The position numbers and the translations under genes were made by a program. From NCBI GenBank assembly GCA_030428565.1, contig JAUIDR010000018.1, positions 1 to 58,803 on the forward strand: 58,803 nucleotides of DNA, written 5' to 3'. The DNA is from Alphaproteobacteria bacterium (GTDB lineage: Bacteria; Pseudomonadota; Alphaproteobacteria; UBA7985; JAUIBT01). Position 1 is the stretch's first letter, and each line of letters opens with the position of its first letter. Below are positions 18,760-20,832 of this stretch, piece after piece. The notes under the pieces are model-generated. The model made no database searches, was not told where the DNA came from, and saw only the letters and a list, made by a program, of their open reading frames with translations.

Positions 18760-18926
18760 TTTGCTGGTCGAGCGCAAAGCCACCGTCGCGACTGTCACCA
18801 GCCGCTCGGGTTTTGCTGGTTGTGCGCAAAGCCAACGTCGCGACTGTCACCAGCCGCTCGGGTTTTGCTGGTTGAGCGCAAAGCCACCGTCGCGACTGTC
18901 ACCAGCCGCTCGGGTTTTGCTAGTTG
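18760..18926. repeat. Three tandem copies of a 52-bp repeat plus a partial copy, between potD and potA
   Basis: Copies start at 18760, 18812 and 18864, exactly 52 bp apart and nearly identical; a fourth, partial copy starts at 18916 and runs into the last codons and stop of potD. Each unit holds a short hairpin (TTTTGC with GCAAAG around a loop of about nine) and the pair GCTGGT/ACCAGC. There are no differing spacers, so this is not CRISPR. The unit is not a multiple of three and is not coding. Confidence 0.9.
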
Positions 18927-19990
18927 GCTGCTTTTACACGGTCCAACGCAGCGCCTTCAAGGGCCTCCAGACCAGCAGGCACCGGCGGATACCACTTGAT
19001 GTTGTCCACATCTGCTGGCGGGAAGCTGGCCTGATAGCGTGCCTTCAAAGCGGCTGAAACGTGCTGATCCGCGCCCTTGGAGGCTGTGAAGTTGCCCGCA
19101 GCATCGGTGATCATGGCCGCAATTTCTGGGCGCATCACAAAATTGATCCAGTCGTAGGCCGCATCTTCTGCGCGCGACTTGGCGGGCAGAACGAAGGTGT
19201 CGATCCAACCCAAAGCGCCTGACGCGGGAGCCACGAAGGTGATATTGGCGTTGTCTGCGTTCAGCTTCCACCCACCGGTGTCCCAAGCCATAGACGCTAC
19301 GGTCTCGCCCGAACGCATGAGGTTCATGAGCTCGTCGCCGCCAGACCAGTAGGTTTTCACGTTGCCCTTACATTCGATGAGCTTGGCTTCAACTTGGTCA
19401 ATAATGTCCTGATAGGCCGCTTCATCGCCATAGGCGCCAAAGGGGTCAAGACCCATTGCAAAGGCAAAGCCGATGAGGGTGGGGCGCTTCAGGCGGTAGG
19501 TTACTTTGCCAGCTACATCCGCGCCGCAAAGGTCGGTGTAGTCCTTGACCATGCCAGCCATCGAGGTGTCGACCACCAGGCCCGAGGTGCCCCAGACGTG
19601 CGGCACGCCAAAGACTTTACCGTCGACAGTGGTGTTGCCTTTGGTTGCTTCCAGCATGGAAGCGATAAATTGGCTGCTGTCGATTTTGGATAGGTCGATC
19701 GGCTTATAGATGCCAAATTCTTGCTGGGGTCCTGCGATCCGGTCCTGGCTGGGCTGCGCCAGATCGAAACCACGTCCACCAGTGGCTCGCAGCTTGGCAA
19801 TCATTTCCTCGTTGTTTGACAAGGTGACTTCGACGCGGTGGCCGGTCTCCTTTTCGAACATCTCAACGACATTCTCGGGTGCGTAACCACCCCAAGTAAG
19901 CAGGCGCAAGGTCTCTGCGCTGGCGGTGCCCGCGAGACCAAGGCTGGCTGCGGAAAGGATGAGTACAGTGCGCCACGTTTGTCTGAGCAT
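18920..19990 (-). CDS. potD: Polyamine-type ABC transporter periplasmic binding protein (PotD class)
   Basis: 356 residues from the ATG at 19990, with GGGAG upstream. A Sec signal peptide (VLILSAASLGLAGTASA) is followed by the PotD-type fold start ETLRLLTWGGYAPENVVEMF. Other family pieces are GVPHVWGTSGLVVDTS, DPFGAYGDEAAYQ and WDTGGWKLNADN. It would capture a polyamine or related compound for the two permeases and ATPase downstream. The 3' end merges with the 52-bp repeat array. Upstream, 512 bp separate it from the next gene and hold the structured RNA candidate. Confidence 0.88.
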   Translation of the reverse strand: MLRQTWRTVLILSAASLGLAGTASAETLRLLTWGGYAPENVVEMFEKETGHRVEVTLSNNEEMIAKLRATGGRGFDLAQPSQDRIAGPQQEFGIYKPIDLSKIDSSQFIASMLEATKGNTTVDGKVFGVPHVWGTSGLVVDTSMAGMVKDYTDLCGADVAGKVTYRLKRPTLIGFAFAMGLDPFGAYGDEAAYQDIIDQVEAKLIECKGNVKTYWSGGDELMNLMRSGETVASMAWDTGGWKLNADNANITFVAPASGALGWIDTFVLPAKSRAEDAAYDWINFVMRPEIAAMITDAAGNFTASKGADQHVSAALKARYQASFPPADVDNIKWYPPVPAGLEALEGAALDRVKAAN

Positions 19991-20295
19991 GATAGGGACT
20001 CCCAAAATTTAGACGATCTTATATCACCATGCGAGGCGCTTAATTTGGCTCGCATGGCGCCTTCCCGATGCCGATCCGCCGCGATAAGTTGGGCAAGGGC
20101 GACATCTGGACCTCTGGCGCGCACAGCATCCGCCGCTGAAGGCGTTTGAGTCAATGTAAATTTTAATATTTTTTTCACGCTCAATGGAAAATGTCGGAAA
20201 TTTTCCAAAACAGGGTCGGTTGATCGGTGGGTTAGGTAGTGGCGATACAGGGCAACGACTCTTGTCCGTGGCTGTATTTACGTCGGGCACAAAAC

Positions 20296-20328
20296 AAAAA
20301 AAGGGCGCTAACTGCGCCCTGATTTTTT
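20296..20328. terminator. Strong bidirectional terminator
   Basis: Seven-base perfect GC-rich stem AGGGCGC (20302-20308) and GCGCCCT (20314-20320), loop TAACT, flanked by an A-run (20296-20302) on one side and TTTTTT (20323-20328) on the other. On the minus strand the T-run follows the stem directly, so the main job is probably to end the transcript carrying the small gene and structured RNA. Confidence 0.85.
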
Positions 20329-20410
20329 CGGCTTCAATCCATGTGGCCGACAGGTAGATACCGGCGACTTAGCTCCGGTGTCTTAATACCGGCGCCATTT
20401 GCCAGCGCCG
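20296..20410 (-). ncRNA. Structured RNA candidate with its own terminator
   Basis: On the minus strand this segment folds, in order, as: GGCGC/GCGCC (20391-20395 with 20405-20409); then two mutually exclusive helices, ACCGG/CCGGT (20388-20392 with 20375-20379) or GACACCGG/CCGGTATC (20375-20382 with 20357-20364, one G-U); then TCGGC/GCCGA (20346-20350 with 20328-20332); then the terminator at 20302-20320. It starts about 90 bp after the small RAE-type gene and ends 306 bp before potD. It could be a 3'-UTR-derived small RNA of the small gene, or a conditional leader of potD. No known Rfam family was identified. Confidence 0.45.
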
Positions 20411-20502
20411 TGCCGCTGTGAGCATGACCAAGATCGATGGACCTTTTTGGGGTCAGCGCGGGAGCGATGCCCGGCAAGTTTGGCAACGGCACGACGGAGG
20501 GA

Positions 20503-20643
20503 TTAGTCGTCAGACTTTGAATGGAATTTCTTGGCAGTAGAGACCAGGAATTCGCGCATCACTTCTGCGCGCAACCGGCGGCCTTCGGCCACATAGCGGT
20601 CAATCATGCCATTTTCGAATTCGTTTTCAAAACGTTGGGTCAT
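20503..20643 (-). CDS. Small basic protein with an RRLRAE motif (alphaproteobacterial small-protein type)
   Basis: 46 residues from the ATG at 20643, which has AAGGAG at a good distance; an upstream in-frame start at 20691 is less likely. The protein is one amphipathic, mostly helical chain with the core RYVAEGRRLRAEVMREFL. Small alphaproteobacterial proteins with a similar R-x-L-R-A-E-x-x-R core are common, often tied to stress responses and to RNAs in their 3' UTR; that resemblance is from memory. The structured RNA candidate and terminator lie just downstream on the same strand. Confidence 0.7.
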   Translation of the reverse strand: MTQRFENEFENGMIDRYVAEGRRLRAEVMREFLVSTAKKFHSKSDD

Positions 20644-20811
20644 AGCTACACTCCTTAGCAAAGAGGATAAGAGCGTGATTAGCGCCCCCAAAAATCGTCC
20701 CCAAAACCCGCCTTGTTGCCAGCGGCTAAGCGGTGTTCAGGGCCTGTCCAAAGGACATGCTTAGAAGATAGGTACGACAGCCAACTTTACTATTTCCAAC
20801 TTGGCAGGTCC

Positions 20812-20832
20812 GCCCTGCTCATTTTGCAGGGC
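20812..20832. other. Short hairpin downstream of the MFS gene
   Basis: Perfect stem GCCCTGC (20812-20818) and GCAGGGC (20826-20832), loop TCATTTT, 27 bp beyond the MFS stop codon. There is no T-run on the minus strand, so it is at best a weak terminator or mRNA-stabilising hairpin. Confidence 0.35.

Follow-up and report, generated by a model that had tools for sequence, protein, structure and literature searches.

The minus strand between a gene for a 46-residue protein and a potD-like gene can form two mutually exclusive helices just before an intrinsic terminator, and potD is the next gene on the same strand. This arrangement raises the question of whether the helices decide read-through past the terminator into potD, as a polyamine- or ornithine-responsive riboswitch or attenuator would, or whether the region belongs to the small gene alone and gives rise to a small RNA (sRNA) from its 3' UTR. 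Both readings had been put forward in a preliminary description of the locus. We analyzed the window, by which we mean the whole stretch of 58,803 nucleotides, and collected the features around the helices in Table 1.

Table 1. Features of the small-protein gene, its 3' UTR and the potD-like gene, in window coordinates and in the order of the minus strand.
Feature	Position	Strand	Remarks
Dyad GCCCTGC-AAAATGA-GCAGGGC (N7 spacer), upstream of small gene	20812..20832	.	possible regulator site; putative function
-10-like box CCTATCT, probable small-gene promoter	20766..20772	-	putative promoter role
Hairpin UGUCC-loop-GGACA, probable mRNA 5' end	20745..20757	-	stem same in all three congeners, loops differ
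5'-UTR block GGGCGCTAATCACGCTCTTATCC	20665..20687	-	same in G002, partly kept in G001
Small-protein gene, RSP_7527 family, 46 aa	20506..20643; stop codon 20505-20503	-	NCBIfam NF046098
Variable part of 3' UTR, 182 nt, holds competing helices; candidate body of 3'-UTR sRNA	20321..20502	-	no similarity beyond shuffles in congeners
Two alternative helices	20357..20392	-	P ~0.9 and ~0.1; not conserved
Intrinsic terminator, 7-bp stem, 5-nt loop, T run	20296..20320 (stem-loop 20320-20302)	-	counterparts in both congeners
Conserved potD upstream block	20125..20208	-	AT-rich 20208-20186, TTGACT 20154-20149, GATGCT 20130-20125; partly conserved in both congeners
Gene for PotD/PotF-like solute-binding protein, next gene downstream, a unit of its own	18920..19990 (ATG 19990)	-	Pfam SBP_bac_8 3.8e-24

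The helices are present on the minus strand downstream of the small gene, as originally described. In helix A, CCGGU (20392-20388) pairs with ACCGG (20379-20375); in helix B, GACACCGG (20382-20375) pairs at seven of eight positions with CCGGUAUC (20364-20357). The segment 20375-20382 had been said to pair with either 20388-20392 or 20357-20364, and ensemble folding agreed: both pairings form, in roughly 90% and 10% of the ensemble (P ~0.9 for helix A vs ~0.1 for helix B; -52.3 vs -49.9 kcal/mol). The 207-nt 3' UTR also folds better than its dinucleotide shuffles (z -3.55; z -2.37 for the last 135 nt), and this folding, like the position of the helices just before the terminator, is in keeping with an attenuator or riboswitch. 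The 135 nt contain six hairpin pairs that overlap, each built on the same run of CCGG/GGC-type words. As many competing pairs were seen in 2.4% of shuffles, compared with 12% of 870 equal-sized tiles of the window, and at least one pair was found in 56% of shuffles and 62% of the tiles. Because such pairs are this frequent among the tiles, competing helices alone are weak evidence in this GC-rich genome. A search of the element against Rfam, which had been proposed as a check, matched no family at gathering or relaxed thresholds, and the lack of a match to a known riboswitch family speaks against a riboswitch. A 52-aa frame at 20334-20492 was taken as a chance occurrence, as it has no Pfam match and falls inside the unconserved segment.

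The terminator that the preliminary description placed directly after the helices was borne out. Its stem-loop reads AGGGCGC-AGUUA-GCGCCCU and is followed by a U run, and the stem has a P of 1.0 in the local fold. It is touched by neither helix A nor helix B; neither helix includes a terminator arm or forms an anti-terminator, which argues against an attenuator or riboswitch. When the transcript was folded at greater length, GGGCGCUAA in the 5' UTR near 20687 could pair long-range with the 3' arm of the terminator. In a transcript of 466 nt this pairing and the terminator stem each had a P of 0.5; with a start two bases further upstream the pairing rose to 0.9, and in a slightly extended transcript the terminator stem dropped to 0.11. 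We took this pairing as chance because it is not kept in the congeners, where the terminator stem retains a P of at least 0.8.

The GTDB family of the source genome is represented by three species in the collection, the source genome included, and the other two (G001 and G002) served as congeners for comparison. A contig scan of the 84,980-species collection for more congeners retrieved only the same two MAG contigs. The order small gene, terminator and potD-like gene is common to all three species. The locus was aligned locally to each congener, with shuffles as the control, and similarity was clear in the block upstream of the small gene (20830-20750), in the small gene itself, in the potD upstream block and at the start of potD. 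The terminator also aligned clearly to G002; the G001 sequence scored at shuffle level but has a 7-bp stem followed by a T run at the equivalent position. The 3' UTR before the terminator (20502-20321) showed no similarity to either congener (score 11 in both cases, equal to the mean of 11 for the shuffles), and the distance from the stop codon to the terminator is 182 nt here, 88 nt in G001 and 38 nt in G002. The alignment of homologous loci that had been suggested for the helices therefore went against them: they are absent from both congeners despite the kept gene order, an outcome that the preliminary description had named as the first of its two refuting conditions, and the segment has no alignable homologue there on which covariation could be scored. 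A conserved sensor domain is likewise missing, which argues further against a riboswitch. The helices are probably a local, fast-evolving structure, a view that we hold jointly with the account of the whole element given below.

The protein encoded by the potD-like gene has PotF and PotD as its best NCBIfam matches, both far below their cut-offs. A spacer of about 70 nt separates the terminator from the AT-rich part of the block upstream of this gene. TTGACT and GATGCT are separated by 18 nt in two of the species and by 16 nt in the third, and a simple sigma-70 scan did not list this block. Judging by the sequence of the block, potD probably has its own promoter near 20154-20125. This conserved promoter-like block is located past the terminator, which counts against control of potD by the helices. 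The AT-rich TTGGAAAATTTC-type repeats at 20186-20208, upstream of TTGACT, are kept in the congeners and may be an operator or an UP element. Between the potD-like gene and the next transporter gene, a 52-bp unit is repeated in tandem (window 18760-18926; 3.2 copies with 94% matches).

The small protein belongs to the RSP_7527 family, with a score of 28.1 bits against the NF046098 profile of NCBIfam (cut-off 26). It is 80% and 57% identical to its counterparts in the two congeners, and a Pfam search gave no match, DUF1127 included. The CCTATCT box is the same in all three congeners and falls inside the conserved block 20830-20750; transcription of the small gene probably starts near 20759. The hairpin at the predicted 5' end could slow 5'-end-dependent decay of the mRNA. 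The dyad further upstream lacks a T run, and all three congeners share its inner CTGC-N7-GCAG, so it might serve as a regulator site and not as a terminator. The GGGCGCTAATCACGCTCTTATCC block in the 5' UTR is possibly a second promoter. A search of the genus for RpoH-type promoter patterns gave 0 matches, and no RpoHII promoter was recognized that has TTG and TAT at the published distance of about 20 nt; the nearest RpoHII-like pattern, found by eye, is TTG-N19-TAT at 20691-20667, which has a spacer of 18 in G002 and is absent in G001.

Membership in this family matters to the question of the 3' UTR. The RSP_7527 mRNA of Rhodobacter sphaeroides has a length of about 300 nt, and RNase E processes an sRNA of about 70 nt from its 3' UTR (PMC6238624); release of such an RNA is published for this species only. 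UdsC, the sRNA from the RSP_7527 3' UTR, is 67-70 nt long, with a 5' end made by RNase E and a 3' end at the terminator; it is transcribed only from the promoter of the upstream gene, is under RpoHII control and has rpoHII as a target (PMC9779115, PMC8625941, PMC6238624). The element studied here similarly lies downstream of an NF046098-family gene that forms its own unit and ends at an intrinsic terminator. For the congeners, transcripts of 320 and 322 nt are implied, near the size of the RSP_7527 mRNA; the one implied for the source genome is about 465 nt, in contrast to the 67-70 nt of UdsC within its transcript of about 300 nt. Because the protein is in the NF046098 family and the 3' UTR of RSP_7527 yields UdsC, a 3'-UTR-derived sRNA is the best lead, plausible and of a known kind.

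A structural parallel is found in a sister family (f2; L009 and L011) of the same bacterial order. There, the 3' UTRs of RSP_7527-family genes are conserved, 68-69 nt long, and consist of a hairpin, an exposed AUUCCUCCCUA and a terminator; the fold z of this module is near -6. The element studied here resembles these loci in gene family, bacterial order and a terminator close after the gene, but it lacks the conserved body of hairpin, CCUCCC and terminator. The 3'-UTR sRNA reading draws on both UdsC, as a precedent in the family, and the f2 module, as a structural counterpart from related bacteria of that order.

We favor the explanation that the element forms the 3' UTR of an RSP_7527-family mRNA with a single gene (monocistronic), that it does not control potD, and that it is most likely used as the source of a UdsC-type sRNA. 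This explanation is supported by the NF046098 match, the UdsC precedent, conserved flanks around an unconserved interior, a terminator untouched by the helices, and the f2 module. Transcription would start near 20759 and stop at the terminator at about 20296, and the transcript would measure about 465 nt. Expression of potD would depend not on the helices but on a promoter of its own near 20154-20125. RNase E would cut the mRNA upstream of the terminator, and the resulting short, terminator-ended RNA may act in trans. Several results count against this explanation. No conserved sRNA body was found within the genus when the two congeners were compared, no RpoHII promoter was recognized, and the 3' UTR is some 100-145 nt longer than those of the congeners. 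Candidate pairing with rpoH leaders had energies no better than shuffles; the second rpoH was at best within the top 6-8% of shuffles in two of the three species, with nothing in the third. Candidate pairing with the potD leader was also no better than shuffles.

One alternative is that the region is a plain untranslated tail, which ends transcription and protects the 3' end of the mRNA and makes no stable sRNA. Such a tail would fit an interior whose sequence and length are unconstrained in the genus, with the terminator alone kept, and competing helices that chance often yields. The UdsC precedent in the same gene family, the conserved sRNA-like 3' UTR in the sister family and the z of -3.55 for the whole 3' UTR argue against it, and we regard a plain tail as possible but somewhat doubtful. 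A second alternative is that the extra 3'-UTR sequence is a recent insertion, such as a decayed palindromic element, that folds by accident. The excess of about 94 and 144 nt over the two congeners and the CCGG/GGC-type repeats would suit an insertion, but loss in the congeners would explain the lengths equally well. Searches for the segment elsewhere in the genome, across the order and in the plasmid collection gave nothing beyond matches of chance size, and we consider an insertion unlikely. The attenuator or riboswitch is not supported, and we judge it highly improbable, because the helices are unconserved and form no anti-terminator and potD has its own promoter-like block past the terminator. 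Of the two readings in the preliminary description, control of potD is not supported, given the unconserved helices and the untouched terminator, and the sRNA alternative stands as a plausible best lead on the strength of the NF046098 family and the UdsC precedent. Dropping the riboswitch reading of potD removes a misleading lead.

The CcsR and cuckoo RNAs of Rhodobacter are CCUCCUCCC RNAs that carry CCUCCUCCC in their loops and are located downstream of a DUF1127 gene. The element resembles them as an RNA 3' of a small protein gene, but the protein here has no DUF1127 match, and a lone CCTCC stands directly after the stop codon. We did not place the element among these RNAs, as the small protein has no Pfam match and the 3' UTR holds no CCTCCTCCC.

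If an sRNA is made from this 3' UTR, the UdsC arrangement would be present not only in Rhodobacter but also in an uncultured genus of Alphaproteobacteria, and the locus would show how fast the body of a 3'-UTR sRNA changes while the gene and the terminator stay. We tentatively suggest that RSP_7527-family genes across Alphaproteobacteria may give dual-output transcripts, in which a small protein is combined with a 3'-UTR sRNA whose body evolves so fast that species of one genus share nothing of it but the terminator; in some lineages, an exposed CCUCCC might be able to bind ribosome-binding sites. The hairpin-ATTCCTCCCTA-terminator module of L009 and L011 looks like an anti-Shine-Dalgarno sRNA. 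Among 63 genomic matches to the family, which include weak ones and related genomes, CCTCC occurs 31 times on the sense strand within 120 nt after the stop codon but only twice on the opposite strand, where there may be other reasons for avoiding GGAGG. In 300 base shuffles the count averaged 17.3 and never exceeded 29, compared with the 31 observed, and this excess of CCTCC 3' of RSP_7527-family genes is a hint only.
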